Positions 9,133 to 48,340 of a stretch of 64,000 bases of DNA are shown here, piece by piece. The notes under the pieces are model-generated. The model worked only from the letters and a program-made list of their open reading frames with translations, was not told the DNA's origin and did no database searches. The translations under genes were made by a program, and so were the position numbers. The stretch is from Anaeramoeba flamelloides (Eukaryota > Metamonada > Anaeramoebidae): assembly GCA_027625915.1 (NCBI GenBank), contig JANTQA010000033.1:2356001-2420000 (forward strand), given 5' to 3'. Position 1 is the stretch's first letter. Every line of letters begins with the position of its first letter.

Positions 9133-10349
9133 ATCAAATTTTTATAATAAAAACGAGACTTTTTTATTATTACTTTATTCTTTTTCTTCTATTTAATTAT
9201 ATTGTTTTAATTAAATCATTTTAATCAAAGAAAAATAATAATAATAATAAAATGATTTATTTGGAATTTAAAATTTTAAAGAAAATTATTTTAAAAAAAT
9301 CTTTTTTTTTGTTTGTAATTTTTAAAGCAGTTTTAATGATTTATTGGATTATTATTATTATTAAATTATTTAATAACAATTCTGGGAAATTTATTTTTAC
9401 ATATCTTTTATTCAATTTAATTTCTAAATGGGCTTTTTAAATGTCCAAAAAATCCATTTATTAAAAATCGATACAATATAATAATCATATTTGTTTATTT
9501 GTAAGACATTACTTTATTAAAAGATATTAAAAATTTTTCCCACCCGATTTAATAAGAAATTTTTTTTTTCATTTTAGATCTTGAAAATGTTTTTTCCCTA
9601 AAGTTTAATTATTTATAAAATTTTGAATTGAAAACAAAAAAAGTTCATGTAATTTTATTCTTTGAAAAATTGTTTTTATCCTGATCATATTATTCTTTTC
9701 TTTAAAATATAATTAATGGTACAATTATTACTTTTCAAATTTGGTCAAATTCCCAAATTGTTTAAATTCTCAATTTTTCCAAAATAGTCAATTCTCTTGA
9801 AATATATTAGACTGTAGGTATTTTTTTAAAAAAAAAATTTGGGTAGGTGAAGGTATTTTAGGGTATTTTAGATTATATTATGGTATGATAGAGTAGTATT
9901 GGGTGGTTTGGATGGTATGCTAGAAAATTTTGGCCCGGATTTTGAAAAGGAAACAATAATTAAAATGATGAATTAGACTTCAAAATCATGAAAAAAATTT
10001 TTGAAAAAAAAAATCAATGATTTGAATATTTTGTACTTTTTGATAACTTCACTTTTAAAAAAAAAGGATTGCCTTATAAAAGATCTTGGATCAAAAATTA
10101 TTATAAAAGATAATTAATAATTTAAGTTGGAAAATAGAATATTCCAGGTTCTATTAATATTTTTTTTTCAGATTTAATCGTAAAAAATTTTAACATTTTT
10201 TTTACAGTTAAAAGGTGATAATCATATTATAATGTTCTAAAAACATTTTAAATTTAATAAATATCTTTCATAGGAATAATAAATTATTTTGACTATTAAA
10301 GAATTATTTATTGATTAAAAAAAAAAAAATTTTTTTTTGGTTTTACGTT

Positions 10350-11395
10350 TGGGTTTTTTTAAATTTTAGAAAGAAATGGAAAATTTATTAGAATTTTCGG
10401 TTTATTCCAAAAAGTAAAAAAAAAACTTGGACACGTTTGTTCGGTTTTTCAGAATCTAAAAGAATTGAGTAAAATGATTGATTTTTCTCTATTATTTTGA
10501 ATTACAAAAAACCTAGGTACTATATAGTACTTGAAGGACACTTTCGTTTAGTTATTTAGAATTTTGGAAATAAACAAAAAAAATTTAAAATTTTAGGTTT
10601 ATTTCAAGAATTTGAAAAAACAACTTTTAGCTTTTCTGAGTTTTCAGTTTATTTGTAAGATCTTTATATTTTCGTTAGGTTTTTTTGAGGTTTTCTATTT
10701 TATTTAGAAAATATATTGAAATTTTCGTTTGGTCTTTTTGACTTTTCTATTCATTTGTGAAGTTTTCTAGGTTTTTTTTGAGGTTTTCTATATTTTTTCT
10801 GAAGTATTCTAGGTTTTTTTTTTTACTTTTCGAAATAAACCGAAAATTAATTCAAATTATCTGTTTATTTCAAAAAGTAAAAAAAAGTTAACGAAAATCT
10901 ATTGATTTTCTAAATAAATAGAAAACTCAAAAAAACCTAAATACAATCAATATATATTCTAAATAAAATAGAAAACCTCAATAAAACCTAGAAAACTTTA
11001 CAAATTAACAAAAAAGTTAAGAAAAGATAGACACTTGAACGTACTTAACGATAACTTTCCGAAGGTTATCTAGAAAATTAAAATAATCAAGTAAAATTTC
11101 TCTAATTTTACTCTATTCTTTTAAATTCTGGAAAACCTAAGACACTTTTGTTAGGTTTTTTTTAATTTTTGAAATAAAAAGAAAATTTCTAGAAATTTTC
11201 GGTTTTGTCTTTTTTGAAATTACTATTTATTTGGAAAATCGATAGATTTTCGAAATAAAACATAAAACCTCAAGAAAACCTAGGCACTCTATTGACACTT
11301 TCATTGGGTTTTTTTTTAATTTTTGCAATAAACAGAAAATTTTAATAAATTTTCAGTTTATTACAAAAAGTAAAAAAAAAACCTAGGACACGACA
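10350..11395. repeat. Palindrome-module array, block A
   Basis: About 1 kb built from alternating inverted-repeat units. One unit folds around TTTCTGTTTATTTCAAAAAG-type and AATAAACCGAAAATT-type arms. A second carries GTTTTCTATTTATTTGGAAA against its complement, with an ATCGATAGAT-like centre. A third has AAAAGAATTGAGTAAAAT against ATTTTACTCTATTCTTTTAA. Units are separated by CCTAGG-like joints (CCTAGGTACT, CCTAGGCACT, CCTAGGACAC). The same units recur in blocks B to F. Confidence 0.75.
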
Positions 11396-13006
11396 ATAAT
11401 TATCTCAATCAATTTTTTTCTCTATTTCTGTGTTATTAGATGAGTATAATATTTTCAAAACTGTTTGTTATTACAAATCAAAGTATATATCCCTAAGTTG
11501 AATTCAATAAAAAAATCATCTGTCCATTTATTTGGAATTTTTACCCGAAAAAACACCTGTTTTTCTTTGTTAGAGACTTTTAAAAAACGTGGTAATACAA
11601 TAAATAATAAATAAAAAAGCCCCATGAATTTGAATTTCTTGAAATTTGATTATATTCTGATTAAACCTTATTATTATTCAGGAAATGTTAACGAAAGTAG
11701 TATTTTTATCAAAGTTTAATTTTTTTTTTATATTTTCATAATAATAGAGTGTAAATTGTTTTTCAAAGTAAAACATTTCCTACTCAACTTTGGTGTTTAA
11801 AATTGGTTTTCAAATAAATTTTCAAAAATATTTAGGATTGATCATTTCAAAAATTTTGGTTTTTTCGACAATTTTAGTAATAAAATACATTGATCACAAA
11901 ACTCCATTCTAATGTTTTTTTTCAAATAATTAAAATAGAATTAGGGAATAGCCAAGGCTCCAATATATTTCTAAAATAGTACACAACTTAAAATAATGAA
12001 TATTATTATTATGTATATCTTATTTTGCTTTCAAGAACAAATAATAATTTAATATTATTAACAATTCACTTTAAAGGAAGCGAAACATCTAAAAACTTGT
12101 TATTTGAAAAATTTGAAAAACTAAAACAAAAAACAAATCAAAAGTGAGTCACAATTTTTGAAGAGAATATTACAGATTTTTTATATGTGAACTTTCACTA
12201 AAAAAAATTTAATAAGAAAATTTTTAACTAATAAATATATAATTGTTAATAAAAGGCATTTTAAAATATTAATTTTCTTAGTAATTATTTGTCTTTTTAA
12301 AGATTTTTTTTTGATCTAGATCTTTTAAAAAAAAAAATATCAAAAAAATAAAAAATTACACAAACAACGAAAAAAAGATAAAGAAACAATTGACTAAATT
12401 CGAAAAAAAAAAAAATTGTATCAAAAAAAAAAAAAAGAAAAAGAAAAATAAAAAAAATGAAAGAGACAAAATTAGAAAAAGTAAAAAAGAAATTTGAGGG
12501 AATTAGAAATAAATGATTATATCTTAAATAATTATTTTTTGATAAAAAATATCTAATAAAAACTAAACAAAAACACTCTAAAAGTATTCAATATGTTTAA
12601 AAATTAATTCAGTTAAGAGCATAAAGCTTTGTAGTTGTTAAATAATTGATATTTTAAATATAATGATTCCAAAAATACTTTAGTGCACCATTTCAAGTGA
12701 AATACCTAAATTTTAAGAGGTTTTTTTTTTCATGATTTGATAGAATACCATTTAAAATTTACTATTTACCTCTTTTTTATTAAAATTTTATGTTGATTTT
12801 TTTTTTATTGGAAATCTAAAGTCAATAAAACAAAACATGATTTTCTAAAGTTATTGAAACAGTCAGTTAAATAATTAAAAAATACATATGAATTTTTATT
12901 AAATGACTTTAACCTTTAATATAATTTCAAATAAACCTTAATGTTTTTCTAAATGTTACCGGGAGATTTTAAGTTTTTCGCTTTTACGAAAATATATTGA
13001 TTAATT

Positions 13007-26500: not shown

Positions 26501-26844
26501 TTTTTGGTTTCGATTGTTAAATTTGGAAAAAAGAATTAAGAAAAAAATTTCCAAAATGAAAATTATAAATAGTGATCATTAGTAAAAAATTTAATTATTT
26601 ATTATGTTATAAGATTTATAATAGATTATGTAGAGCTTTTTAAGCCATGGTGTACTTATATCATTTACACATAATTACAACATACTTTGATTATAAAGAA
26701 ATCTAGGGTAATGTTAATCCCTTAATCATAGAATAAATAATAAAATTAATTGGTATACAAACGAACGAATAGGGGCAAAATAAGAAATGTATAGTTTACA
26801 TATAAACGGTTACTGAATTATAAATGTTGGAAAACTGTCGCTAG

Positions 26845-27260
26845 CTTTCATTGGGTTTTCTATTTTATCTTCTAAATTATTAGATTTATGTTAGGTTTTT
26901 TGGGGTTTTCTATTTATTTGGAAAGGCAATAGATTTTCTAAATGAAATAGAAAACCTCAAAAAAACCTAGAAAACTTCACAAATAAATAGAAAACCTCAT
27001 AAAAACCGAGAACACTTTACAGATAAGACAGAAATCCCGGAAACCCCGAGAAAACTTCACAAATAAACAGAAAACCTCAATAAAGGCGCTGCTATTTATT
27101 TTGAGAAATAAAATGAAAATTGTTTTAATTTTTAATTGTATTTCTAAAATCAAGAAAAATTGTAATTACCTTTTCCTAATTCAAATGAATGGAGTAAAAT
27201 CTGTGATTTTACCCTATTCTTTTAAATTACGAAAAAAATAGGTACCCTATGGCATTTTTA
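26845..27260. repeat. Palindrome-module array, block B
   Basis: Arms GGTTTTCTATTTATTTGGAA and AAATGAAATAGAAAACCTCA surround an AATAGATTTT centre. Three consecutive ACTTCACAAATAAATAGAAA-like units follow, then a GAATGGAGTAAAAT / ATTTTACCCTATTC hairpin at about 27190-27232. Same modules as block A. Confidence 0.65.
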
Positions 27261-28911: not shown

Positions 28912-29773
28912 GTAATAACTTTTTTTTTTGATCTCATCATAATTAAAACTTAGTTCAAGTTTTCATTTTAGTACTGCAAAAATTTTTTCAAACAGAAAAA
29001 TATATTTTTTAAGACTCCATACTTCATTACATCACATTTAAAGGTTGACTCTTCACTTTATTAAAACAACAAACTTTCAAAAAGTGTTAATTCTGAAAAT
29101 GTATACAGTTTTTTAAAATTGAATACTTGATAAAACTATTAATTCTGAAAAAGTTTTCACTTTTTTAAAATAGAAAACTTCAAATATGTTTTAAAAAAAG
29201 TACTCACTTTTTAATAAACTTCTCTATCACACAATTAATTTTTGGTTTTTTCCTAAATTGCTTCTTTTTTCTTTAAAGAGTTTTTTTATAATCCTTATTG
29301 GTGACTTTGAAAAACACCTCTTTGCTTAGGTGCGTGCTGGAAGCAAATAGTATTTTCTGATTTCAATAGGTCTACCTTAAAGTAAATAAAAATTTCTGAT
29401 AAATTCATAAAAATGTTTTTAACTTTTTTGTTCCCCTTTTCTATTTTTGAAAATGATTTTATAGGCTTTGAAGAAAGATTTTAGTGGTTTAAATAAAAAC
29501 GAAAATTCTAAATTAGTTGACAAAAGAACTGGAGTTGTTACAATTTGTTTTGAAAGTTGGTTTACAAGCTCTTAAAAATTTAAATCCAACCAAAAAGTTC
29601 AAACTGTTTTTTGAAATTATTAGTCGATAATAAATTATTTCATCAAACGATTGGAAATCAAACCACAAACATTAGGTTGAATTGTGTGCAAGTTTTTGTG
29701 ATTCTATTTCATTTTCTGATCATTAGCATTTCTCAAAAGTTTACTTGCATTAAAATTAATTCAAAAAATACTA

Positions 29774-32700
29774 ATGTCGAGCTCTTTGAAAAATGTTACG
29801 ATTGGTACAGTTCTGCCTTGCAAATTCCAAAATAATAATTATTACGATTGTGAAATCTTAGAAATAAGAACAAACGATAAGAACCAGTTGGAGTATTATG
29901 TTCATTTTACTGAATGTAACACAAACATTTTTTTTCTATTTTGGGAGAACAAAAAAAACAAAAAAAAAAAAAAAAAAAAAAAAAGAAAAAGATTTTTAAA
30001 ATTCTTAATTGCTTTTATGTTTCCCCTCAAATGGATTTTTTTTATTATTTTTTAGTTAACAAAAGACTAGACGGATGGGTTTTAGGTAGTAGATTAAAAA
30101 CAGATCAAATAAAATCAAATAAAAATATTCACACAATTACACCCAAACGTTTAACAAGAACAAGAACAATGGAGGGAAGAAAATCAAATCAGAAAGGAAG
30201 AGTTGTAAGTACCAATATTCTTACCTTAACAAAAAACTAATCAAAACAATAATTTCTTACTTTTTTAAAGACGTTCAATATCACCAAAAGAAAAAAAAAC
30301 AAAAAAAAACATTTTAAACGTAAATCAATCCCTAAATGTAATTAAAAAACATTCGATCTAGTAAAATAAAGAATTTCACATTCAAACAAATTTGCAGAAG
30401 ACTAAAACTAGCTCTTTTGAAAAAACTGTTTTATAGATTCCTAAAAAAAGTTCAACCGAATTTGTTTGCTGTTAGCTTTTAGAAATGAAAAAATAAAATT
30501 GAAAATTTCAAACAAGACAAAAATATTACTTTAATTCACATTTCACCCGTTGTTAGTAGGGTTTGTATTCATAATATAACCAACACTCCAGAAGTTCACA
30601 ATCTTGAGGAAATGATATTTATTGTTGTTAGCAGTAGTACGATTTTTAATACTCTCTAGTTGAGAAAAAACTTTTTAAATTACTTGTTCAATGAATTTTT
30701 GTTTAATTCAACTTGGAGGTACTTACTTTAAATGGTAATCTCTAATAGGTTTGAAAATGGTCTAGTCATCTAAAAAAACTGAAATATAGAAAAAAAAATA
30801 ACTAATATAAATATTGCCTTGTCCGTAGAGTGCCGTCAAGTGCCGTAGAGTGCCTAGGTTTTTTTTAATTTCTAAAATTAAAAAAAAGCCTTACGGCAGT
30901 TTTCCAGAATTTAAAAGAATTGAGTAAAATCTTTAATTTAACTCTATTTTTTTTTTGAATTCTGCAAAGCCTAATGGCGGTTTTTTTTACTTTTTGGAAG
31001 AAAACCTAAAATTTCTACTCGATTATTTTGAAACCTGGAAAACATAACGAAAGTGGCCGTCAAGTGCCGAGCTTTTCCAGAATTTAAAAGATGAAACCAA
31101 AAATCATAGATTTTGCTCTATTCTTTTGAATTCTGGAAAAGCTAACGGCGATTTTATTTACTTTTTGAAAAAAACCTAACGAAAATCTATTGATTTTCCG
31201 AATAAACATAAAACACAAGAAAACCTAACGTTAAGTGTCCGTCAAGTGCCTAGGTTTTCCGAGATTAAAAAGAATCAAGTAAAATCAAATAGATTTTACT
31301 TTATTCTTTTAAATTCTGGAAAACCTAACGAAAGTGTCCGTCAAGTGCCGTAGAGTGCCTAGGTTTTCTTGAGGTTTTCTGTTTTATTTATTAAATCTAT
31401 CGATTTTCCAAATAAACAGAAAACTCAAGAAAACCTAACGATGCTTTTCCATGATTCAAAAGAATGGAGAAAAATCAAAGATTTTACTCAATTCTTTTAA
31501 ATTCTGGAAAAGCTAACGGAAATTTTTTTTACTTTTTGAAATAAACCGAAAATTTATTAAAATTTTCTGTTTATTTCAAAAATTAAAAAAAACAGAAAGG
31601 AAAAATCAAAAAAAAAATAATTTTTTCAATTTAAATCAATAAATAATTCTTTAATAGTCCAAATAATTGATTCCTCATTTGAAAGATATTTATTAAATTT
31701 AAAATACTTTTAAAAAACAATAAAATGACAGCCAAACTGTAGAGAAAAAAATATAATAAACTTTTTTATGATTAAGTTTGAAAAAAATCTTAATAGAAAC
31801 TGGAAAATTGGATTTTTCAATTTAAATGATAAAATATCTTTAAAAATAATTTTTGATCAAATATTTCTTATTAAACAATAATGTTTTTATTCTATGTGAA
31901 GTTATTAAAAAGTGGAAAATTGGCAAATATTTAATTTTTTTTTGAAAAAATTTTTTTAATGGTAATATAGTAAAGTTCCTTTTGAAAACTTTTTGGTAAC
32001 ACTTTTTTCAAATTACTCAAATGTGATTAGAATTATCAAATCAATTCTATTTAGATTAAGGGGTTGTGTCCAAAATGAATTCTGAGCATATGCCACAAAT
32101 CGCGTCCTTTTATTTTGATTCAGGAAATTAGATCTTTTATCAACATATTAAAATAATTTTTTTTTTGCAACAAATGCAGTTTTTTTGGTTTTTATTTTTT
32201 ATTCTATCGTAAATACCAACCAACCACAAAATAGAAGAGTGGTACTGGTTAATGAGGGGGGGTATTGGATTTTACTGGGTTAGTACCAAAGTACAAATAA
32301 ATGACTTAAATAAAAAATTAATTGTATAAATATCTTATTAATTGTATTTTTAAGGAATTAGTAATTGAAGTTTTGACAAAAAAAAAAAACAAGAAAAAGC
32401 CAATAAACATCCATTTTTTCCAAAAAAAAATTATTTTAATATGTTGATAAAAGATCTAATTTCCTGAACCAAAATGAAAGAAGTTTTTTATAATATATCA
32501 GAAGAATTCATTTGGAACGTACATCCTTAATTTCTTTTTTTTTTTTTATTTCAAAAAGGTAATTAACTTGTTTCCCCAAAGTCATTAGTTTGAGTTTTTA
32601 AAAAAACTTTAACAAATCCAAAAATAAAAAAAGTTATTTGTTTTGTAATATTATAATCAAAATCTATAGACATTCAAAATTGATTACAACAATTCAAAAA

Positions 32701-35700
32701 GAGAAATTACAAATTTTGAAATAACCCACTAGATAATGAATTTACTATTGCGAAAAAAAAGTAAAACACATTTTTTTATTGTAAACATTAAGGAAAATCA
32801 CAAAAATCACAGAAATCACAGAAACCTGAAAATGAAAAATAAGATCAATTAATAAAAGAAAAAATAAACAAATAAAGATAAAAAAAAATTAAACACAGTA
32901 ACAGTTTTTCTAATACTATCTTATTGTGTGATTTTTTCTTCAATTGCTCTATTATTAAAAACTCAGATGAAAAATTTTGACTATTTTTGAGATCTTCCAA
33001 AACCACACCATCAATTCCGATATGAAAGTAGATTTAAATTGTATTTGTTTGGTTTGGTCGATAATTATATAATAGATTATTCTTTGAAGTTAATTTGTTT
33101 CTTCTTTTTATTGATTTTGCTTTTTTGTTTTCAGGTAATCTTCCCAATTAAAAATAGTGTTGAACTTTTTTTCCTGTTTCACTTTTTTTTCCCAAATGGT
33201 AAGTTTTATTTTTGTTCCTTTAAAAAAACAATTTACCTTGAGTTATTACTGTTTTTGATCTAAAGGATCGATCGATCTGCCAACAAAATTAAAACAAAAT
33301 ACGATGAAAACTCTTGATATGATCATAAATTAATTATATTTCTTTTTTATTGATTATAATTAAACTAAATTCCAAAAATTTGGACATAGTTAAAACAGTT
33401 TAAAGAAAAAAAATATTTCACTTTATCTTCAATTTAGAAATAATTTTGATTTTTACAAACTATTACATTTTTTGCCTTTTTTATTTTGTTTTCATTTCCA
33501 TTTTCCAAGTTAGTAAATCTGTTTCGTTAGATCGGGAAAATATTTTTACAATGGTTGATATAAAGGTCAAATTTGATTTTAGTTAAATAGAAAAATCACA
33601 TAAAATTAGTCAATGGTAACTGACCATTTGGGAAATCAATAATTGTCCGTGGAATTTCAACATCTTTAGCAATACAATTTTTTTCTTCCGTTCTTACTAC
33701 ATCATTTTTGACAAATTGGTTTTTATTTTTTTCGTTTTTCTTTTATTTTTATCTTTTGTTTGGATCAAAATGGTTACATATAAAAACATTAAGTTTGGAA
33801 AAACAAAAAAAAAATGCCATAACTTTGCTTTCAGCATCAAATATGTATTTTTGGTTAAAAAATGTTATTTTGTGGAAAAAGTTTATATTTTATTAATATT
33901 AAAGGTCTTTATAGAAACAAGACAATCAACTTAATTTCAAATCCGAAAACTAAAATGTTCTAGTTCACAATAGTTTCAAAGTTAATATTTTTCAGACACC
34001 TTGTCAAACTAATTTTATAATTAATAAAACACCAGACTCGACAGAATTGGTTTGTTAGAAATAAAAATCAAAAAGTTAGTCAAAATTTGAGATTCATCTT
34101 GGCTTTTTCAAAAAGTAATGAAAATATAATGTCTTCTTTTTGACTCTTAAAAACTAGATCTTCAAAGATTTCTCTCATTTTTTTTTGTTTCAAAGATTGT
34201 CTTGTTAATCAAAGCCAAAATGTTAAATTCAAAAATAAAAAAATTCATTAAGAAAATTATATTTTATATTATACTTTTATGTTTAAATTCTTATCTTTAT
34301 ATTAAAAAAAGGTTTCAATTTCACAATTTGAAAAAGATCAACAAGAAAAAGAAAACAAATTGCGCGAACTGATGAAAGTTAGAAATATTGATACTGTATG
34401 GTTTGGAAAATGTGTATTAGAACCATGGTATTATTCCCCTTATCCAACTCATATCATCCGCTATAGAAAAATATATATTTGTGAATTTTGCTTCAATTAT
34501 TTCGATTCCGAGCGATCATTCTTCCGACATATGGTAATTTCATTTTTATTTTTACAAAACAAAAAAGAACAAAAAATGATTAAATATCTAACATTGCGGT
34601 TTTACTTTTTATTCTCATTCACAACGAATACTTTCTTAATATCTTATGAGATTTCCTTTTCGTGTACTTATAAAGAACAACATAGTCATAGAATGTACCA
34701 TTATATTTGAGACTATTTTCAAAATAATTTATTGTTATTGTGTCTAATATTTTCAAAATATAATATTTATAAATTTATCCTCCAAACTTTTTATTGAATT
34801 AAAAAAATCACTTTTGTTTTTTTTTTTTTTCAATGTTTGAAATAATTTCATTTTTTATTTATACTTGTTATCAATTAAAGGAAAAGTAATTTAAAATAAA
34901 CTCTTTTCCAATAATTACAGGTTATTTAAAAATGAAAAAACACTATTTTTTTATCAAAAAATATTTCTTTAAGTGACCAGTATTCCACAGCAACATGACA
35001 AAATTATAAAACATGATTATTGGTGGTATTCTCTACTTACAAATTTTGTAGATGCCAAGTGTTAAAAAAATCAGATCAACTAAGAAGCCCAGAAAAGAAA
35101 ATTTTTTTTCAGAAACATTATTTTTTTGTTTACTTTTTTTCTGAAAAAAGAAAACTATTGAAATTCAGTTTATTTCTTACATTATAAAAATGTTTTTACC
35201 TTGTCTATTACCATTTTCATCATTATTACACACTAAATAACAAGTCTTTGTTGCCTGAAATATTAATTAAAGATTTGTTTTTCTTTTTTGAGATAATTCT
35301 TTTGGCTAAACTAAAAAAATTGATTTATTCAACATTTTGAAAAATATTCATATTGTTTTAGGAAGTGCAATTATCACCATTAAAGTTTTACAAGCCATTT
35401 ACAAATTTTACCCATAATTATGTTTTTTTTCTAAATTTGATTTTTTTAAAATAAAATTTTCACAAAGATAGTTGTGAATTTTGTAATTTTTTCCTCATTT
35501 TTTCAAAATCAATTTTTTTTATTGACAAAAATGATTTAAATTGTTATAATGATTCTTGTGAATAAGACCAAACAGTTTGTTAAAAAAATATAATTCAAAA
35601 TTGTAAAATTTTTTGGTGATTTTTTTTTCATTTTTTGAAAACGAGAAAATGACTTTTTTCAAAATTTCAAAGAATAAAAAAAAATTGCTTAATAGATCTA

Positions 35701-38700
35701 AATTTCATTGCGAAACTTTTGTTAGGCTTCTACCACATTTTCATTTATTTAATCACCTATACCTCAATTAATTTTATTAGCTAAGATTTGAATTGAAATA
35801 TTAATAATTAAAAATAAAAACAAAATAAATTTTTTATTTCGAAATCAAGACTTTTCAACATAAAACGTAAAATCTGTTACACGACTTACAAGAATTAACT
35901 TAATTGCTAATAAAAATAATATACTTTTTTTGAGTTTTATATTGGAAACATTTGAATTTTGGAATCTCAAAAAAATAGACCCAAATGAATAAATTGTTTA
36001 AATGTGGTTAACTCATCCATTTCGTCAGTTGAAACACAAATTACAAAAAAAAAAAATTTTTTTAGAAGATCTCAAAAAGATTTCATTTTATTTTTTAAAA
36101 ATACTACCCCCTTAATCAAGTTTTTCAAATAAAAAAATATTTTTTCTTTAATATGTTTATTACTTTTGATTATATAGCAATTTAATTTTTATTTGAAAAA
36201 AAAAATAAAAAAAAAAATGGATTAAAAATTTTTGGATAACATTTCTTAAATTATATCTTATCGGATAAAATAATCGGAAATTAGTTTCTTTGATTTATAG
36301 TGTGTGATTCAACCATCTTCTATCATAATAATCTACAATAAATGTTTTTTTTTTTTAGCAATTCAGACAAACAAAAAGGATTAACAACTCCCTCCTTAAA
36401 TAATAATAATAAAAATATGGATGATTTAATTTAAAAGAAAGATAACTTTAAATGAATTTTGTTAATCAATAATTATAAAATAATCTCCAATTCAAAATTT
36501 TTGAAAAAATGAAATTCAATTTTCTGAAAAAAAAACTCTTATTTAAATCGATTATATAGGAAATACCAAATGATTACAACTAACTAATTGAAAAGTTTAT
36601 AATTATTTATAATTTAACAATAAATAAAAATAAAAAATAAATAATTATTAAAACTAATAAAAAAATGGTGTGTCCAAAAATTTTGGAGTGATAGCAATAA
36701 CAAAAAAATGTATTGTTAAATTTCTTGAAATTGTATTAACAATTATTAATCGATCAAATTGCTAGATACCATGAGCTAATTTTATTTATTTTTTTTATTT
36801 TAAGAAGGAACTCGACTTTTACCGTAATACCAATCATTCAAAAACAATTTTCGATCTATTCAAGCATATTACATAATTAGAAAAAGCTAAATAAAAACAA
36901 CAATCAAAAAATATATAAAAATATTTGGAAAAATCAAAATTATTTTCAAATTTCAGGAAATTGTAGTATTGTGATTCTTTTAACTGTTTTAACTGTGCTT
37001 AAACTTTTTTTTATCCCTTTCACGATTTTAATACATTAATAAAAAAAAAATAGTTTTTATAACATGTGATAAGTATGCTATTTATTTTTATTTAAACATA
37101 AACTTTTTCTTTGTGAAAAAACTAAGTAAATAATTTTTGATAACTCCTGATAAGAAAGAGATTAGAACTCTTAAAAGTTTAAGATAGCATCGTAGTTGTT
37201 GTGTAAAGTTTTAAGAAATTATTGTATTCTTAGACAAAGTTGGAAAAATTTTCAGATCTTCTTATTTCCGATTCTAATTAAGTAAAATAAAAAGTATTTT
37301 ACTAAGAAAATTTGGCTTTAAATATGATATTTAAAGTTATTTTAAAACACTTTAACTAATTTTTTTTGCGATTTTGTTTAATTGATAACAGCGAGATTAG
37401 CGAATTTCTCAATTCCAAATCATTTAAACATATATTTTCGTTCAGGTAACCAAAATATTTGTTATTTAAAAGCTAAAAAAAAGTATTTTATAATTTGAGA
37501 AATGTTTGGAAAAGGAATAAATTCCATTTCTTTATTGAAAATAATGTCTATATACAAACATTGTTTTTTTTCGTTTTTATTTCGAAAAAAGCCAATATCA
37601 TTTTTAAAAAATAAAAATAGATTTGTTCATTTTTTTTCATGAAAAAAGAGAAAAGAGACCACTAATAGAAGATTTTGAAAGGAAAAAAAAACATAATTAC
37701 AATTTTAGAAATTTCAAAAAAGTTTAAAAAAATTATTTTTTTTGATGATGTCAAGTAAAGAAATTTTTGTGGAATGCTTAAAATCAACCATGACTAAGAT
37801 AAAATAACACGTGTGGGATTTTAGGTTTGATCATTTTTGAGAATTTGCTTACAAACGAGGAACAAAAGGGGAGATAGAGATCTAATTGAAAGTATCAGAT
37901 CTAGTTTGTCTCTGTAAAAATAAAACCAAATTTTGTCTTCGATAGAACAAAATGTAAAATTAACTTTAATATTTTCGTTAACCCCATTGGGAGAATAAAA
38001 TCCTTTCAAGATAAGTACTTCAAAGTAACATTAAAAATAGACAAATTATTTTATTTTGTTGCTTTTTGTTTTGCAGAGTTAGATCCTGAGTTCCAAAAAT
38101 AAATAGCATCTCATATTGTTTCATTATTTTAACAATCACCTTTTATAATTATTCGTTTTGGATCCTCTTCCAGACTCAAAATAATGATATTATTCTAGTG
38201 CTAAGATGATATTGATCTTCGTTCTTCGAACTCCTCAATATCATCTTATGTCACTTCGAACAATCTCATTTTTTTTATTCTTCCAGTCCAAACTCAGATT
38301 ATAACAATGGGATTGTTTCCAGATCAAAACAATAAAAACAGTTATAAATTTGTTGTGATATATTTTTGAGGACTTTGTCATCAAGCGCTATAGAGTACCG
38401 TAGAGCGCCGTCAAGTGCCTAGCTTTTCCAGGATTCAAAAGAATGGAGAAAAATCAAAGATTTTGCTCAATTCTTTTAAATTCTGGAAAAGCTAACGGCG
38501 GTTTTTTTTAATTTTAGAAATAAAAAGAAAATTTATGAAATGTTTTTTTTATTTCAAAAAGCAAAAAAAACCTAACGGCGAGTGCCTTGAAGTTTTTTGT
38601 TTTTGTCTGTTAAGTGTTCTAGGTTTTTTTGAGGTTTTCTATTTTATTTCGAAAATCTATTGATTTTCTAAATAAATAGAAAACTCAAAAAAACCTAGAA

Positions 38701-39238
38701 CACTTCACGAAATAAAACAAAAATCAAAAAAAAATCATGACACTTTTCATAGGATTTTTTGTTCTGTTTGGAATATCCATTGATTTTCCAAATAAACAGA
38801 AGGCTTGATAAAAGCTAACGGTGATTTTCCAGAATTTATAGAGAATTCTAGAAAACTTAACGGGAAGCGCCGTCAAGTGCCTAGTTTTTTTTTAATGTGA
38901 GAAAAGAAAATTTCAAAAATTTTCTTTTTATTTCTTAATTTAAAAAAAACCTAACGACAAACAGGTGAACTTTTTGTAATCACTCTTTATTGGAAAAAAA
39001 AATTCCAAGATTTTTAACAAAAAAAAGAGTTTTGATTTTTTATTTTATTATTAATTTAAATCCTAACAAAATAATAATTAATTTCATATTAAAGATTATT
39101 GAAATCAATTTTTTTGCAAATTCAAAATAAAAAAAATTTCAAAATAAAAAATTATTTGTTACCAAAAATTTACCAATGTATAAGATTTTAATATGTTGAA
39201 AGCAATGTTTAAGAATCAAAAAGATTAATTCTCTCGGT

Positions 39239-39272: not shown

Positions 39273-40015
39273 CTCTTCTTTGATTTATTAATAAAATTAT
39301 TGTATTTATTTTTCTAAATTTCTATATATGATTTTAAAAGATTCGGTGTAATGTTAGACACCCCCCAGGAATTGAAATATACCAAGAAGATAATCTATCA
39401 ATTTTTGAAGTCGATGGAGAGAATTCAAAAGAATATTGCCAAAATTTATTTTTACTTTCAAAATTGTTTCTTGATCACAAAAGTTTAACTTTAAATACCG
39501 AATTATTTTTATTTTATATTTTGTGTGAAAATGATAATTTTGGTTGCCATATTGCAGGATATTTCTCAAAAGAAAAGCACCCCACAGAAAAATTTAATTT
39601 GGCATGTATCCTTGTATTACCTCAGTTTCAAAGAAAGGGGTATGGGAAATTACTTATTTCGCTATCATATGAACTTTCAAAAATTGAAAAAAAAATTGGA
39701 TCTCCCGAAAAGCCTTTATCTGATCTGGGGCTCATAACTTATCGGAATTATTGGTCAATAATATTGGTAAACATTTTAAAAGATTATATCGGTCAATCGA
39801 TGTCATTGAAGGAATTATCAAAAATCACCTATTTTATACCAGAGGAAATTCAATCAACTTTACAGTGGTTAGATTTAATTTATTTTTCAAAACCAAATTA
39901 TTTTTTGAATTTAGAAAATTCTCAAATAATCAAAAAATACACAAAAAAGTTTAAAAATACAAAATTCATCAATTCAAAATTATTAAAATGGGTACCTTAT
40001 GATAAATATCTTTAA
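29774..40015 (+). CDS. KAT5: MYST-family histone acetyltransferase, TIP60/ESA1 type, four exons
   Basis: Exons 29774-29915, 30056-30204, 34312-34533 and 39341-40015 join in frame across GT-AG introns of 140, 4107 and 4807 bases, giving 395 residues. Exons 1 and 2 encode a Tudor-knot chromodomain. The splice restores YYVHFTEFNKRLDGW, matching the TIP60/ESA1 signature. Exon 3 gives the MYST start (WYYSPYP) and the first zinc-finger half CEFC. Exon 4 supplies the final zinc-finger cysteine (H-x3-C across the junction), the lysine that MYST enzymes autoacetylate (FLDHK), the active-site cysteine region (LACILVLP), the acetyl-CoA loop QRKGYG, the catalytic glutamate in SYELSK and SPEKPLSDLG. All key residues are intact. 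The family acetylates H4 and H2A.Z in NuA4/TIP60 complexes in the nucleus. Catalytic-domain details are partly MOF-like, but FNKRLD favours TIP60/ESA1. Exons 1 to 3 each sit in short frames and would be missed without splicing. Confidence 0.93.
30821..31594. repeat. Palindrome-module array, block C, with GC-rich spacers
   Basis: Four hairpins of one module lie at about 30901-30970, 31072-31140, 31255-31325 and 31444-31511. Each has a CCAGAATTTAAAAGAAT-type arm and its complement ATTCTTTTAAATTCTGG. Between them are spacers such as GTCCGTCAAGTGCCGTAGAG followed by TGCCTAGG (30822-30858, 31053-31073, 31228-31255, 31336-31365) and CTAACGG / CTAACGAAAGT joints. Other palindromes carry TCTATTGATTTTC and TTTCTGTTTATTTC centres. 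The spacers are far more GC-rich than any flanking DNA. Confidence 0.8.
32064..32523. mobile_element. TIR element with ~100-bp inverted ends inside intron 2
   Basis: The left arm (GTCCAAAATGAATTCTGAG, then TTTTGATTCAGGAAATTAGA and TCTTTTATCAACATATTAAA) is mirrored by the right arm ending GAATTCATTTGGAACGTACA. Arms span about 32064-32165 and 32422-32523. The centre has no coding sequence. I found no second copy in the window. A non-autonomous DNA transposon of unknown superfamily. Confidence 0.7.
33369..33640 (-). repeat. TCCAAAAATT-family element, partial reverse copy
   Basis: It starts ATTCCAAAAATTTGGACATA and contains AAATCTGTTTCGTTAGATC, the reverse complement of the AGATCTAACGAAACAGATT block of the copy at 17811-18842. 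The other terminus is not found, so it is truncated. Confidence 0.5.
35300..36130 (+). repeat. Dispersed ~600-bp repeat, copy 2
   Basis: Motifs in order, shared with 62400-63005: AATAGATCTAAATTTCATTG, ATCACCTATACCTCAATTAA, CAAGAATTAACTTAATTGC and a CTCATCCATTTCGTCAG-type block followed by GAAACACAAA. A reverse copy is at 1960-2560. No coding potential. Boundaries approximate. Confidence 0.55.
36665..37015 (+). repeat. TCCAAAAATT-family element, partial copy
   Basis: It contains GGTGTGTCCAAAAATTTTGG, then a TTAATCGATCAAATTGC block and a TATTACATAATTAG block in the order seen at 17984-18720, ending near ACTGTGCTTAAACTTTTT. The left terminus is missing. Confidence 0.45.
38202..38248. other. Perfect 13-bp stem hairpin
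   Basis: TAAGATGATATTG (38202-38214) pairs with CAATATCATCTTA (38236-38248) across a 21-base loop that itself contains a TTCG-rich stretch. It lies in intron 3. Function, if any, unknown. Confidence 0.6.
38373..38962. repeat. Palindrome-module array, block D, with GC-rich spacers
   Basis: It opens with the spacer GAGTACCGTAGAGCGCCGTC followed by AAGTGCCTAG, then a hairpin at 38421-38494 (CAAAAGAATGGAGAAAAATC against its complement), CTAACGGCGG, and palindromes around TTTTATTTCGAAAATCTATT and ATATCCATTGATTTTCC. A second GCGCCGTCAAGTGCCTAG spacer is at about 38866-38883. It closely parallels block C. Confidence 0.8.
39239..39267. repeat. (TA)n microsatellite
   Basis: An uninterrupted TA dinucleotide run of about 14 units, shortly upstream of exon 4 of the MYST acetyltransferase gene. 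Confidence 0.9.
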
Positions 40016-41999
40016 TAAAAATGATATATATGATTTAATGAAAATCACACCACCTAGGATTCTTTTCTTTTTTACTATTTTTTTTTTTTACAAAAATATT
40101 AAAAATCTTTATGAAATTAAAAAATTGTTTAATATTGGATTTGTCAATATTTCATTAAGGTTTATTCTTTTATTTTTGAATTAAATTACAATAAATTTTA
40201 ATTTTTTTTTTTTTTGGGACATTTATTTTTTAAAAAAATCTTTACTTTTTTTTTATTATTGAAGAAGTGTAAATTACACCCTAAATGTCCTTTGACTTAG
40301 ATTTTCTCAAAGGTAATTTAAGAGTACAATCATAGATTTCATGATTGTTCAAGGGAAAGACATACCCAAATTATATTTATGGTTAAAAAGCAAAAACAAA
40401 AAATTGAAAAGAAGAAAAGAAAAAAGAAAAAGAAAAGAAATTTAAAAAGTGTTTATAAGAAGTAGTTGGTATAAAAAAAACGAAAAAAAAAAAAATCAAT
40501 GCTATCTTTAATTAATAACACCCAAAATCACAGTCATGATACTTTTGGTTGATTTAATATAATTTGATAATTGATCATGAGTGTAAATTTGGGATCGTTA
40601 TTTAATTGTTGTAATTTCAATTTCTTTTTGATCTGATTTGCTTTAAACCAATGGACATTTTTTGTTTTTGCTTTTTTAATTTTTATTTTCAAGTTACTCA
40701 TATTTTTGATTTTTCAGTATATCCAGTATTAATAAGTAACGACTTGATCTTTTTCCTTTGTAACTCTTCTTTGCAATATAAATGAAATACAGCCAGGGGG
40801 ATTATAAAAAAAAAATTACTTTTATATCAACAGAAAAAAGTGACATTTGATTATTATTATTGTTATTGGTAAAAAGGTGTAAAAAGTTGATAATTTCTCA
40901 ACTTTTAACAAACGTTTACAAGAATCTTACTTTTTAAAAATTATCAAATTAATAAAAGAGAATATTATTTCAAAAAAATGTTAAAATAAATATTAATCAA
41001 ACTTAAGATATCTTTTTATTAATAATTAGTCATGATTTAATAAAATGTCAAAGAAAAAATCAATTAATAAGAGATTTTTACAAAATTAAATTTGATAGAA
41101 GTGAAAAAATAAAGAACAATTGAGTAGAATATTTTTTAGTTTTATACAAAAATTCAACAAACCTTTTTTTATTAGTTTGATAATCTAAATGAAGAAATAA
41201 TAAATTTTATTCAAGAAAGAATTTTTCAAATTTTCAGGTCATTAATTAAATTTTTTATTTTTATCAAATATTAAAAATTGTTGATATCTAAAAAATAACC
41301 TCACTTTCTTTTAATAATACTAAATCTTGAGTTTCAATTTATATTCTATTTTATAAAAAAAAATGCACTTTTAAAATAAATTTATTTAATTGATTTTTAT
41401 TTAGATCTATTTATTTTTTTTTATTATTCTTTTTTATCAAGTATTTTGATTTCAATTATTTGAGAGTTTGAAGGACAATAAAATGTTCTGAAAGCCAATG
41501 ATTCTATAAGAAAAGTATATATAGTTGTAATTTGATTCGGTATTACATTGAGTAATATAAAGGGATTTTAAAGAATTGTGGAAAATCATAGACTTGGAAA
41601 TAAGTAAAAAAAAAAATGGAATTTAAAAATAAGAGATTACTAATATGATAAAAATGATATTGGAATTTTAAAGTAAGACCAAACTTATTATTATAATTAT
41701 CTTTTCATACTTGTTAATTAAGTTTATCTTTATTATAATCATTATTTCAGTATTTCAAATTCTTGAGGCTATTGTATTTTTTATTTTTAGTAGTAATATA
41801 GTTTTTAAAAGTCTCAAGTGGAGAAAAAGGTCTATTTTGCGGTAAAAATGTTTAAATGGAATAATGAATTTAGGTTAAATTCAAGTTTAAAATATTTTTC
41901 ATAGATAAAAACTAATAGTAATTAAAACACTATACTCATCTAAAAAAAAATAAAAATGTTGAAAAAAAACAACTGATTACAAATATTTAATGACATAAT

Positions 42000-42252
42000 T
42001 TTTTAGGGATATAAAATAATCAGGTATAATCCATGATTTTTACTCTATTATTTTAAATTATGATACAGCTAAAGTTTTTTTTTTTTATAATTAATCTTGA
42101 TTTTAATAACTTTTGGGTTTATTTCAAAAATTAAAAAAAAAAGCTAACAAAAACTGTTCTTCAGGTAACGTGGGATCAGATGAAGTTCGAAGGTTTTTTT
42201 TAATTTCTGAAATTAAAAAAAACCTAATAACACTTTTTTGGTTTTTAAAAGG
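42000..42252. repeat. Palindrome-module array, block E (fragment)
   Basis: It has a TTTTTACTCTATTATTTTAA half-hairpin, an AATAACTTTTGGGTTTATTT palindrome arm and AAGGTTTTTTTTAATTTCTG joined to its complement. The GC-rich spacer is degraded to AGGTAACGTGGGATCAG. It lies inside the 4.2-kb TIR element. Confidence 0.55.
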
Positions 42253-43602
42253 TTAACAAAAAAATTTAAAAATAAAAATATTTTTTTCAATTTAAAAGAA
42301 TAAATAAGTTTTTAAAACCCAAAAGAACTGATTCCCGATTTGAAAGGTATTTATTCAAGGTTTATTCATTTTCTGTGGATTTGTCACAGATTCAATGAAT
42401 GACTTGAAACCAAAAGGGGTATTAAGAAATTGCCCTACGTCTGATTGACAAAATTCCAATTACAAAAAACAATTTCATGAGTATCTCCTTGTAAAAAAAT
42501 TTAATTTAAAAAAAAAGTATAAAAGTATTATTAATTTTCAATATAATTTAAATAAAATAAAAAAAATTAATATTTCTTTTATTAAATTTCCAAATGGTTA
42601 AATTTCTTCAATTTAAAACATATCGTTTTTTTTTTGTTTGTAAAATTAATTTAATTGGATTTATTCCAATTTGTAGTTATTTTTAACGCACTTTATTTGA
42701 TAAAGTAAGGATTTTTTAATAATACTCTTATGAAAATAACTCATTTGAAAAATGAAAAAAATGAAAAAAAAATCTTCGAGATCTTAAAAAATACCAAAGA
42801 TCGAAACATCAAAACTGACTAAGTTGTTTTCAAAATTAAATATTCGAATCATTCTAATTGGAAATTGAGTGTCAATCTTTGACTCTTTTTTCTAAAAAAT
42901 GTCCTCTTTTTTGATTGTTGATTTTAGGAGACAGATTTCACTTAACCAGTGTTGTTGGTTTTTTGATTGGTATTCGGAACTCAACATAATTAAAATTATT
43001 TTTCCATTTGAGAAAATTATTGTTAAAACATATAAACCAGCAATTAATATTATAATACTTTTAAGATATAATAAAATACCATCTTGAATGTTATAATTGT
43101 TATTGTTTTTCACTATTAAATTGAAAAAAAAATATTAATAATACTTTGAAAATTAGATTTTTCAATTTAAATTTTCAAATATCTTGAAAAATCATTTTTT
43201 GATCAAAGATCTCTTATTAAATAATTCTGTTTCTTAAAAGTAAAGTTATCAAATAGGGAAAAATTAATGAATTTTTAATTTCTTTATGAAAAAGGTTTTT
43301 TCATCATTGTCTTTCTAAATTTTTTTAATGTATTATTTTTTATAATTGTATTCAAATACATATAAAATCAGAAAATATTATTTTTTTAGTTAGTGAAAGG
43401 AGTAATTAAAGAAAATTTATCAAATAAAAAATAAAAAGATAAGAAGAAAATTAAAATATCAATAAATAATAATAATATCATTTTCATGGGAAAATAGAAA
43501 CTATACCAGTCATGAATATACAGGAGGGGTAAAAACCCGATAGAAAGATTATCTATTAAAGATAAAAATTTCACAATCTGTGATTAATAATTGGTATTCT
43601 AC

Positions 43603-43720
43603 TATCGTTAGGTTTTTTTTTATTTAAAAGAATGGATTAAAATCTTTGATTTTGCTCAATTCGTTTGAATTAAAAAAAAACTAGACACTACCCTTCGGAG
43701 TCAGGCACTAGGTGCCCGAA
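43603..43720. repeat. Palindrome-module array, block F (fragment)
   Basis: One hairpin, AAAAGAATGGATTAAAATC against GATTTTGCTCAATTCGTTTG, is followed by a GC-rich spacer containing CGGAGTCAGGCACTAGGTGC. It lies inside the 4.2-kb TIR element, near its right arm. Confidence 0.55.
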
Positions 43721-45444
43721 TTTATATATTTTTTACAATTTTAAGTATTTTTTGATTTCACAGTATTATTATTATTATTATTTTGATAGCTTAAGTTTTC
43801 TAAACATAAGAACTTTGATGAAGAATCCCCAACAAGAGCATAAAAATTTCATAATTTTTAAAAATAGAATTTTTTTTCATTTATTTCCCCAGCTGAATCT
43901 TCTTTATATTGGGGAGAAGAGTTACAAAGGAAAAAGATCAAGTGGATACTTGTTAATATCGGAGACACCGAAACACTAAATTATGAGTAACTTGAAAATA
44001 AAAACAAAAAAGCAAAGGCTAAAAATGACCAAAGGTTTAAAGTAAATAAAATCAAAAAAAAAAAAGAAATTAAAACATTTAAATAAGGATCCCCAAATGA
44101 ACCTTCATGATCAATTTCTAAATTATATGAAATTAACCAAAAGGACCATGACTGTGATTTTGGGTGTTATTAATTAAAGATAGCATTGATTTTTTTTTTT
44201 TTGTTTTTTATCAATTGTTTCTTATAAACACTTTTTAAGTTTCTTTTCGTTTTTTTTTCCTTTTTTCTTTTCAATTTTTTACTTTTACTTTTTAAACACA
44301 AAAAAATTTGGGGTATGTCTTTCCCTTGAACAATCGTGAAATCTATGATTTTACGCTTAAATTACCTTTGAGGGAATTTTAAGTAAAAGGACATTTAGAA
44401 TTTAATTTACACTTCTTCAATCAATAAAAAAAAAAAAAACAAGAGAAAATTTTTGGATGTAATTTAATTAAAAATTATATTTTATTGATATTCGTTTATA
44501 ATTATTTTGATAATATTTTGTTTAATATGAATTTTGATAAGAGTCAATTACAAAGAAAAAATTTTATTTTAAAAGCAAAGTTGATAATCAATATTTGTGT
44601 TGTTCTTTCTTCGTCTGGCTCTTGATCAGAGTTTGTATTTGCAAAAGAGAAAAATAATCCAAATTTTTTACCAAAATAAACTTTTGTGAAAAAAATGAAA
44701 AACTGTTTTTGTATTGATACAAATATTTTTTTTGGCGTCTATCATTGGATAAAAACAAAAAAAAAATATATTTTTTGCATTTACAATGAATTTAAACTTT
44801 TTTCCCAATGCTAAATGTTATTAAAAAAATTGATATTTTATTAATTGTTGAAAAAGAAGTTATTATAAAGTGAAATTATGATTGTTATTTTAAAATAAAA
44901 AATTCGGTTTAAACAAAGTAAGTGATTGAAAGATAAAGAAAAGAGGAAAAAAATAATAGAATTAGTAAAAAAAAAAATAAAAAAAAAAAAGATAATGGAT
45001 TAAAAAATTGAGATTTGAGAAAAGAAATAATTGTTTGTTTACTCACTAAAAGTTGATTACTCTGAAATTAAATTTACAGAAAAATTATTAAGAAATTTAT
45101 GAAACTTACCTTATTTTTAAAAATTATTATTACATTGGCACCATATAAAGTAAATTTTAATAGAACTAATAAAAAAAAAATCGAAATAGAAAGAGAAATA
45201 GAAATAGAAATAAAAATAAAAATAAAAAAGGTAATTGTGGATGTATATGCAATTTTGTATTAAAAAATGTTTAAATGGTTTTAGTAATGATTAAAATACA
45301 CAAATGTTAGTATTTTTTTATAAAATTAACTTCCATTTTCAAAAAAATACTAACACTGTTGTGCCTTTTATCAAATAATTAAATTTAATTACATGATAAA
45401 AAGAAAATAATCAAAAAGAAAAAATCACAACAATTAATATATAG

Positions 45445-45670: not shown

Positions 45671-48340
45671 TCAATCAAGAATCTTATTATCAACTTTGTT
45701 AGTAATCTCAACTTTTTGTGAATTGGTATTATCCATGAGATTGGAATTCTTGAAATGAATATTTTGATTTGAAAGTGATGTTAAATTCTCAAATTCTGGG
45801 ATTAAAACTGATGTTTTAGTAATTACTGTTGTTTGGATTGTGCTCTTGTTATTGTTGCTGTTATTGCCATTGTTATTTTTGCTATTAATATCGCCAATGC
45901 CACTGTTATTATTACTCATATTATTCTTGGTGGTATTTTGTAAATTTGTGAAATTGCTCTTATTACTAACCATCTTGTTGTTGTTCAAGCTTTGTAAATT
46001 GAGGTTATTATTATTCGTCAAATTTTCTAAATTGTTTTTTTGAAATGTCTTTTTTTGATTTTGTATATTTAAATTTTTAAGGTTGTTTTGAGGAGAAGTC
46101 ATAATTTTATTTAAATTGAGAAAAGTTAAATCAATAGGATCAATAATTGATTCGTTCCGATGTTTATTACGAACATTTCTCTTTTTATTATTTGTATTTG
46201 GGATAGTTATCTGGTTTTGTATATTCGATGATTTTTTGAGCTTATTATTCGAGGCTTTTGATGTGTTTGATCCTTTTTTTGCGTTATTTAATTGCACTTT
46301 AGATAAACCATTCTCCATTTTGTCTTGGTGGAAATATTTTTGATCAGTAGTCGATAAATTATTTCCCACAAAAGTTTCTTTAACACTTTTTATTTGAAAA
46401 TGAAAAGATACCCTGCCTTTGTTCGTATCTACTTTACGAATTACATTTATTGATTGAGGTGATTGATTAGAGTCCTTCTGTAAAAATTTCTCAACTGCCC
46501 GCTGAAGAAATTTTGATAAAGAGGATTTAAATCCTGAATTGATTGATAATTTTTTAGTTAATTTTTCTGCTTCGTGTTTTGGATTGAATCTTTTGAGTTC
46601 AATTTGATGAATCGTTTTTTTGACTCTTTCTTGGAATTGAATTGTAACTTTAATAAATAAAATAGTGGATTGTAATGATTTTTGTAGATTTGTCATCTTT
46701 GGATTTGTAAGGTTTGTACTTTTGTTATTGTCTTGTTTTGTTTGTGTATTTGCATTTTTTTCCTTTTCTTGATCATTCTCAGAGTTTGATTCTGATTCCA
46801 TGTCTTGTTCTGGTTCTGATTCCGTTTCCGTTTCTGTTTCTGTTTCTGTTGCTGTTGCTGTTTCTGTTTCTGTTTCTGTTTCTGTTTCTGAATTATTCTC
46901 ATTGTCTGTTTTTGTTCCAGAGCCCGACCCTGAGCCAGTTATTGTTGCTGTTGCTGTTTCTGTTTCAGAATCTGAATCAGTGCCAGTTATAGTGCCAGTT
47001 TCTGTAATTGTTGCAGTGTCTGATTCGTTTTCTGAGGCCGTTGCTGTTGCTGTTGCGGTTTCTGTTTCAGAATAATTCTCAATTTTTGTAACATGATCTT
47101 GTAAAAATTTACCATTTAATAATTCTTTCACACCTGGCCTTCGCTTGACTGGTAAAAGACAAGAAATGATGAAGTTTTTAATTTTTTGATCCTTGATTTC
47201 ATTTAATTCTTTTGGAGGGACACCCTAATATGACAAGAGAAAAATTTTTATTTTGAAAAAAAGTTTAGTTTTTCCAACAAAAAGGAATTTTTTTCTATTT
47301 TTCGATTTTCTGAGAAACAAAAAGACAGAAAAATAACAAAAGCAAAAAGAAAAACAAAGACAAAAAATATAAGAAAAAAAAAAAAATATTTACAAGTGCA
47401 ACTTTTTTAAAGATTTGTCCAGCGCTTTCACATTCGCTGTAGGGATATTTCCCCGTAACCATTTCTAAAACACACATCCCAAAGGCGTACACATCTACTT
47501 TTTCATCATATTTTTCGTCATACATTTCAGGAGCCATAAATTGTGGTGTTCCTTTATATTTTTTTTTTATTTTTTTGTTTTTTATTTTATTGGGATCGGA
47601 AAAGGTATTATTAAGGATTTTTGTCGTGTTATTTGAAAAACAAAAAAGTTTTTGAAGGAGTGAAAAAATTGAAATTTTTCAACAAAAAATAAATAATAAA
47701 AAAAAAAATTTCAAAAAGAAAAAAAGTTAAGATTATGTGTTTCAAAAAGAATTTTTTTAAATTTGGAATCAAGCATACCAATCATACTAGTCACAAAATC
47801 TGTTTCCTTTATTGTTGACAAACCTAAATCACCAATTTTCACGTTACCAGTTTTCCCATCAACAAAGATATTGTCGCATTTAATATCTCTATGGATAATG
47901 GGTGGATCATGGCTGTGGAGATGATCGAGCCCTTCCAAGATTTGCACACACCATTTTTTAATTACAGCTGTCCCCAGTTTCCCAGCTTTACTCACATACT
48001 CACGTAGGGTACCCGAAGTCATTAATTCTGTGATGAAAACAATTAAATTCTTTTCTTCATCAAACCAGCAACTCATCAAATCAATGATGCGATGGTTTTT
48101 AATTTCCATTAACAAGTTAATTTCACGCAGCAATTTGTCACCCGTGTGGCCGACTAATTTGCCAACTTTAATCTGGTTCCAAGCCACAACCTTCCCCTCT
48201 TCGGTGTCATGCGAATAATATACAGTTTTATAAGCACCCTTCCCAAGCACCCTTGAATAACGGTCATAGTTTTTGTGGTGCTCGACTGGCCTTGACTCAT
48301 CAGAATTCTGTCTTGGTGAATTTGTTAATGATTTGCTCAT
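45671..48340 (-). CDS. WNK: WNK-type protein kinase, three exons
   Basis: Minus-strand exons 48340-47779, 47551-47394 and 47224-45671 join in frame across GT-AG introns of 227 and 169 bases (757 residues). The kinase domain spans about 27-285. The WNK hallmark is present: the glycine loop [10 protein letters not shown] carries the catalytic lysine (K38) and the usual strand-3 lysine is replaced (VVAWNQI). Further family blocks are [12 protein letters not shown], the DLGLSTI motif whose leucines bind chloride in animal WNKs, the activation-loop serine before IGTP (T-S-M-I-G), and [13 protein letters not shown]. The C-terminal part has a Thr/Glu/Ala repeat tract (about 292-400) and a segment (426-488, with LFIKVTIQF and [18 protein letters not shown]) that resembles the OSR1_C-like CCT module following kinase domains of WNKs. 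The tail is Asn-rich. WNKs sense chloride and osmotic state and activate SPAK/OSR1-like kinases. The downstream target here is not visible. Confidence 0.93.
46795..47075. repeat. Coding tandem repeat (Thr-Glu / Thr-Ala / Gly-Ser) in the WNK gene
   Basis: On the coding (minus) strand, ACAGAAAC-type hexanucleotide repeats give runs of [12 protein letters not shown] and SGSGSG. All alternate frames also stay open because of the repeat periodicity. Likely length-variable. Confidence 0.8.

Follow-up and report, generated by a model that had tools for sequence, protein, structure and literature searches.

Mosaic arrays of palindromic modules at filled and empty sites of repeated elements in Anaeramoeba flamelloides

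The window analyzed here, 64,000 nucleotides of the Anaeramoeba flamelloides genome (assembly GCA_027625915.1, contig JANTQA010000033.1, positions 2,356,001 to 2,420,000 of the forward strand, or C34:2356001-2420000), contains the domain-bearing open stretches of a MYST acetyltransferase gene and six blocks of palindromic DNA, termed A to F. The blocks are assembled from modules M1, M2, and M3, three palindromes of ~70 bp that differ in sequence, and a GTTAGG-type foot and a GTGCC-type spacer recur, with variants, between and outside these modules. Module order and number vary from copy to copy in a module map that leaves out module matches shorter than 35 bases. Arrays of this kind are found in several carriers, including an element that resembles a miniature inverted-repeat transposable element (MITE) and the reading frame of a long interspersed nuclear element (LINE)-type retrotransposon, at exact sites that are empty in other copies. 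The blocks and the acetyltransferase segments are arranged in the window as follows.

9985..11746, minus strand: block A, a whole MITE-like copy with array (flank homology at 9992-10338 and 11394-11739; termini)
10353..11379, no strand assigned: array of block A, M3, M1, M3, M2, M2, M3, M2, M2, M1, M3, M2, M3 (module map)
26838..27255, no strand assigned: array of block C, stacked M2 halves (by eye), M3, M1
29720..30055, plus strand: MYST open stretch with Tudor-knot domain (PF11717, 5.8e-9)
30478..31963, plus strand: block B, a whole MITE-like copy with array, between the Tudor-knot and zf-MYST segments
30821..31593, plus strand: array of block B, M1, M1, M3, M2, M1, M2, M1, M3 with spacers (module map, folding)
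34306..34710, plus strand: MYST open stretch with zf-MYST domain (PF17772, 2.9e-19)
38373..38955, plus strand: array of block D, M1, M3, M2, M2, M3, between the zf-MYST and MOZ_SAS segments
39338..40015, plus strand: MYST open stretch with the MOZ_SAS catalytic domain (PF01853, 3.2e-73)
41638..43307, plus strand: block E, a MITE-like copy with array at ~41998-42262 (left flank 41645-41987, right flank 42270-42358 and 43043-43300)
43378..43858, plus strand: carrier of block F, a repeat common to loci L010, L016, L026, and L052, with site a empty here
43607..43692, plus strand: block F, a single M1 hairpin in site b of that carrier

Sequence reading, repeat finding, and the module map all bear out the original prediction of palindromic modules in changing order, joined by GC-rich spacers, at these positions. 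Its placement of arrays within an acetyltransferase gene also holds, with blocks B and D lying between the domain-bearing open stretches of the MYST gene. The blocks are not loci of one kind, as had been supposed, but three MITE-like copies with arrays (A, B, and E), two further arrays with unsettled carriers (C and D), and one single hairpin (F). The extents first given for A, B, and E require revision, as these blocks belong to larger elements whose ends had been missed, and F, initially read as an array, consists of only one M1 hairpin inside an older repeat. The flanks of block C are repeated elsewhere, with matches in L018, L010, L012, L025, and others (L-numbers denote loci fetched from the assembly), and its carrier is uncertain. 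Block D ends in CCTAAC, after which comes GACAAACAGGTG, similar by eye to the surroundings of site 4 in the LINE-type frame described below, and its carrier is likewise uncertain; L027 has a copy of the repeat that lies upstream of block D (76%), and that copy lacks an array there. The right flank of the block E element is broken by ~680 bp (42359-43042).

The modules extend far beyond the window. A search of the 254-Mb assembly (76 contigs) with a 22-base core of M1 returned 1512+1530 = 3042 matches (control, 0+0), and the spacer pattern returned 163+156 (control, 1+0), excluding the confinement of the modules to this stretch that the original prediction had named as a way in which it could fail. 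Inside the window, the spacer word GCCGTCAAGTGCC has nine matches with at most three mismatches, against 0.53 expected and a highest shuffle value of 4; seven fall in block B and two in block D, with 0 in A, C, E, and F. Single-strand folding gives -261.7 kcal/mol for block B (z -17.0, 20 shuffles) and -207.3 kcal/mol for block D (z -15.4, 100 shuffles). Paired double changes, the compensatory pattern that a functional RNA hairpin family would leave in both arms, amount to 30 cells in M3 versus 14.4 in shuffled data (0/500 shuffles) and to 13 in M1 versus 16.3 (466/500), with relatedness of the instances uncontrolled in both cases and 50/98 M3 and 52/86 M1 instances entered after exclusion of those with <90% coverage. 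An Rfam scan of the whole window returned 0 families, a tRNA scan of the window in the bacterial setting returned 0, and the spacer 20-mer had 0 matches against viral contigs. Three single matches of the M1 core in a prokaryote genome collection (two in Pedobacter, one in a Fusobacteriaceae bin) were taken as chance. The arrays are a real, genome-wide, and structurally unusual system.

The carrier of blocks A, B, and E is a MITE-like element. Homology between A and B continues past their arrays for ~336 bp to one side and ~348 bp to the other, and both flanks recur in block E. The length cut-offs for matches were >150 bases in one comparison of the A and B flanks, >60 for flank homology and outer ends, and >50 in the comparison of the third carrier described below. 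Most copies start near CACTAGTATGAAAAAATAAAATTG and finish near the reverse complement of CACGATCATGAAAAAATTTTTTC, with a terminal inverted repeat CAC..ATGAAAAAAT and ends of the form CAC...GTG; the 32 two-ended copies are 802-2172 bp long. A 2-bp target duplication is present in 17/32 of these; 200 re-pairings of the ends gave 4.6 on average and never more than 10. Duplications of 3 to 9 bp occur in at most one of the 32, and shifting the borders leaves 2-bp matches in at most 7/32 (at two of 12 shifts). The three copies in the window do not themselves have the 2-bp duplication. The element is short, bounded by terminal inverted repeats, and associated with a target duplication of fixed length, as is expected of a MITE. 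It resembles the MITEs of the CACTA/EnSpm superfamily in its left terminus, CACTAGTATG, and short terminal inverted repeat, and differs in its right terminus, CACGATCATG, and in the 2-bp duplication. The usual target duplication of CACTA/EnSpm elements is 3 bp. CACTR, the mark of CACTA elements at both termini, is present only on the left, where the carrier reads CACTAG; the right terminus reads CACGAT. Identification of the carrier as a Helentron was dropped on account of the 2-bp duplication, as the Helitron/Helentron group is defined by insertion without one. The Rep-helicase profile PF14214 had 0 matches in the assembly, but also none in the control genomes. Repeated fragments similar to the right end of the MITE-like element, one terminating in CACTACACTACACTACAAGG, lie at L022:3628-4519.

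Many copies of this element contain no array. First-look searches yielded 2998 candidates for the right flank and 1711 for the left, of which 40 per search were scored. A query in which the two flanks were joined without the array, a design that favors empty copies, gave 39 places: 29 uninterrupted, five split by gaps of 106-474 bp (one of them the source of the query, L038), and five with the left flank only. The seven of the 29 uninterrupted places that were read are all clean, with the sequence AAATATTG^(G)AAAATCAAA and no trace of an array. Filled copies instead read AAATATTG, a spacer such as AGTGTTCGTC, the modules, and then CCTAACGGAAAATC, with variants. The existence of array-free copies indicates that the array is an insertion in the element. 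Among 20 10-kb loci selected by the spacer, and therefore biased toward arrays, eight have a MITE flank at the array (five on both sides, three on one) and 12 do not.

Several of these 12 loci have a LINE-type frame adjoining the array. In L021, an RVT_1 match above the cut-off (1.1e-9) lies on the same strand ~650 bp upstream of the array, and array-free L066 and L062 have partial RVT_1 matches below the curated cut-off (8.3e-6 and 7.1e-4). The carrier of L009, L019, L021, L024, and L027 accordingly has the reverse transcriptase in frame that marks a LINE; a reverse-transcriptase match 4 kb from the array in L010 was not counted. Within 1.4 kb, L021 has arrays at four places, which correspond to four sites in the C-terminal part of the frame.

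Site 1: after ENSPSWK; unit reversed in L021
Site 2: after NINKQ
Site 3: inside the DHFLW..CP region
Site 4: near the frame end, TTCGGG^

Each site is found both filled and empty. Sites 1 and 2 are filled in L019, where 3 and 4 are empty; L024 has the first two empty and the third filled; L027 has site 1 empty and 2 and 3 filled; L009 has sites 2 and 4 filled and 3 empty; and L081 has site 1 empty and site 2 filled. In L062, a single open frame of 365 aa passes through empty sites 1-3, with FADDLIL, SPSWK-VQEYL, NKQ-QRYL, and DHFLWNC legible. Twelve copies 95-96% identical to the last 411 bp of L019 have no array at sites 2, 3, and 4 (12/12), and site 1 is empty in all 11 that can be read there (L065 is truncated before it); these copies were drawn from 40 scored matches, the query itself lacking an array at sites 3 and 4, and the same match list also contained two filled members, L019 and C13:429566 (L080). 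Little-diverged copies of the LINE are mostly array-free, 12/14 of those read at 94-96% identity, which are not a random sample. The right junction of a filled site 2 has 46 exact occurrences in the assembly (control, 0), of which six were fetched. The array-free copies L061-L072 have A-rich tails, and by eye L063, L064, L065, L068, and L069 look 5' truncated. In L083, the sequence upstream of a right junction of the site-2 type (CCTAACGACAAAAGATATTTAAAATGG) is something other than the LINE frame, and the locus may be a recombinant.

The repeat that carries block F constitutes a third carrier, with two sites. Site a, empty in the window copy, is filled in L010, L016, L026, and L052. At site b, the window and L052 copies carry a lone M1 hairpin; those of L010, L016, and L026 have no insertion there. 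A LINE-like C-terminus lies upstream in the L010 copy, as seen by eye only.

Arrays also contain insertions of their own kind. In L085, and likewise in L080 and L083, an M3 unit lies inside the loop of M2, converting TTATTTG^GAAAATC into TTATTTG, TGAAGTGTTCTAGG, module 3, CCTAAC, GAAAATC. In L021, the opposite M2 arm contains a unit, which need not represent a second event because M2 is palindromic. Both orientations occur, the unit at site 1 of L021 being opposite to those at sites 2-4. L080 and L084 combine the start of a site-1 array with the end of a site-2 array, and the intervening stretch of the LINE is missing. The four bases preceding GTTAGG fit TKYC in 8/11 listed contexts (window background, 0.0205); these contexts were chosen by hand, and one of them, L026 at 4.7 kb, is probably site a, reducing the count to 7/10. 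Among 50 mechanically chosen outer ends, many of which share the MITE site, C is found at -1 in 41, T or C at -2 in 45, G or T at -3 in 48, and T at -4 in 45. The TKYC bases pre-exist in the empty MITE site, LINE site 4, and the M2 loop. No target duplication of the units is evident at the sites read, where GG (site 4) and GA (site a) could count as one. An interpretation of the array ends as those of a 2-bp-duplicating transposon was not adopted: GG and GA would fit it, but it does not work for the M2 loop or for site 2.

Directly observed, then, are the carriers, filled and empty versions of exact sites, both orientations, nesting, and the products of recombination. The reading favored here, which we consider probable, is that the arrays are inserted composite non-coding units that have spread mainly with their carriers and been reshuffled by nesting and recombination. 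The units would be built from M1, M2, and M3 and would, in one orientation, start with GTTAGG and end with a GC-rich spacer, the last bases lying around ...GGCACTTCA. They would insert whole and duplicate the target little or not at all. Specific positions would serve as targets: one in the MITE-like element, the four C-terminal sites of the LINE-type frame, two in the third repeat, and the M2 loop, where insertion would generate nested arrays. Multiplication would proceed mainly by copying alongside the carriers, and arrays would change through nested insertion and array-array recombination. We infer that an enzyme acting in trans might recognize the foot of the hairpin and move the unit, perhaps as single-stranded DNA, similarly to the repetitive extragenic palindromes (REPs) of bacteria.

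Several observations weigh against this proposal. L019 and L021 share the same module order at site 1, M3-M1-M2, and filled L019 and L080 belong with 12 other copies read at 94-96% identity, all of them empty; together, these relationships suggest that descent, conversion, or recombination accounts for part of the distribution. Of the six filled site-2 junctions, two (L080 and L084) are recombinant and one (L083) lacks the upstream LINE frame. The TKYC contexts have misfits at LINE site 3 (AGTG), block F (TATC, where L052 has TGTC), and L018 (TGCA), and the motif is absent or partial in empty LINE sites 1 and 2 and in third-carrier sites a and b. With the motif pre-existing at some empty sites and not at others, it may reflect either a target preference or an element end. 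The spacer-side end of the unit is variable. Finally, the Y1 transposase profile Y1_Tnp (PF01797) has 0 matches in the assembly (one first-look candidate was unconfirmed), and 5/14 control genomes match. The open frame of L062 through its empty sites and the merging of contexts to 7/10 pull in opposite directions on the odds.

Among the alternatives, the arrays might be internal tandem or palindromic repeats of a MITE-like transposon in the style of DINE-1/HINE elements, growing by slippage or unequal exchange and transferred by recombination only. The eight spacer-selected loci with a MITE flank at the array are consistent with this origin, as are the differing array lengths among copies and the recombination seen in L080 and L084. 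We nevertheless consider it unlikely, given the clean array sites, with empty copies, in the LINE-type frame and the third carrier, the many MITEs without arrays, and the 2-bp target duplication of the carrier. Helitrons make no such duplication.

The exact presence or absence of units at fixed sites, and a frame that stays open in copies with empty sites, would also be expected if the units were introns or introner-like elements that are missing from copies made from spliced LINE RNA. The borders led to rejection of this very improbable explanation. As judged by eye at LINE sites 1-4, the MITE site, and the M2 loop, unit ends read GTTAGG...CACTTCA or TGAAGTG...CCTAAC, neither form being bounded by GT on one side and AG on the other, and removal of the nearest GT...AG at site 2 of L019 fails to restore the empty sequence. 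The site-1 unit of L021 is, moreover, opposite to those at sites 2-4, and units are present in MITEs and hairpin loops as well.

Decay of a single classical foldback transposon of fixed structure, which the original prediction had offered as the outcome that would undo it, could explain palindromic modules and mirror-image ends. It is nonetheless very doubtful, as module order and number are not fixed, composition differs by copy, three module sequences are involved, units are nested, and the several carriers are unrelated. Movement of the hairpins by a Y1 transposase of the IS200/IS605 or REP-associated (RAYT) type is very unlikely in light of the negative Y1_Tnp search, despite the hairpins, the lack of a clear target duplication, the constrained bases beside one end, and spacer words, GTAG and CGTC, that resemble the REP tags described in PMC3733652.

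The window has other features as well. A long inverted repeat pair (40246-40817 and 43868-44434, 84% over 576 bp) surrounds block E and is separate from the arrays. A direct repeat (18097-18613 and 50196-50714, 92% over 519 bp) is the least diverged long repeat listed in the window, and another repeat has three diverged copies (35280-36115, 62196-63006, and 1965-2580) aligned over 602-862 bp. On the minus strand, 45671-48367 comprises a protein kinase segment (PF00069, 1.2e-31 at 47711-48367) and, adjoining it, a low-complexity open stretch of 517 aa without a Pfam match.

The nearest working analogue of the inserted units may be the REPs and bacterial interspersed mosaic elements (BIMEs; REPINs), palindromes with GTAG/CGTC tags that are thought to be moved by RAYTs (PMC3733652). 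These share with the arrays small palindromes, short foot tags, often opposed neighbors, high copy number, and occasional location inside genes (PMC3733652). The units do consist of palindromes with a conserved short tag at the foot. The arrays differ in being eukaryotic, AT-rich, and composed of longer (~70 bp) modules, with three sequences per array, in residing in other mobile DNA, and in the lack of a detected Y1 enzyme; in view of that negative search, membership in the REP/RAYT group is not claimed. A nuclear counterpart of REPs and BIMEs is a tentative possibility, in which differing hairpin modules would share one mobilization signal at the foot and insert without duplication at specific short sites, among them the loops of such modules themselves, to yield mosaic arrays in retrotransposons and MITEs, by means of a class of enzyme that has so far not been connected with elements of this sort. 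DINE-1/HINE elements and the satellite-carrying Helentrons of oysters resemble the MITE-like carrier in being non-autonomous, in having internal repeats, and in their high copy number (PMC4067079, PMC7492417). The carrier differs from Helentrons in its CAC..GTG termini and 2-bp duplication, and its core is missing from many copies. Foldback elements of the Galileo type are alike in inverted-repeat content and recombination among copies. The arrays are instead modular and without the fixed long terminal inverted repeats by which foldback elements are defined. The double-hairpin elements and byps of fungal mitochondria are short hairpins, sometimes located in reading frames; the present arrays differ from them in being nuclear and multi-module and in occupying retrotransposon frames. 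The original prediction that no nuclear family with this grammar is known stands insofar as none turned up in searches of one open-access library, which is not proof of absence.

Hairpin units are present within a retrotransposon frame, and most of the little-diverged copies read of that retrotransposon lack them. If the units do move themselves, they would constitute a mosaic palindrome system of a nuclear genome, in which numerous natural copies, filled or empty at the same sites, make target choice and mechanism directly testable.

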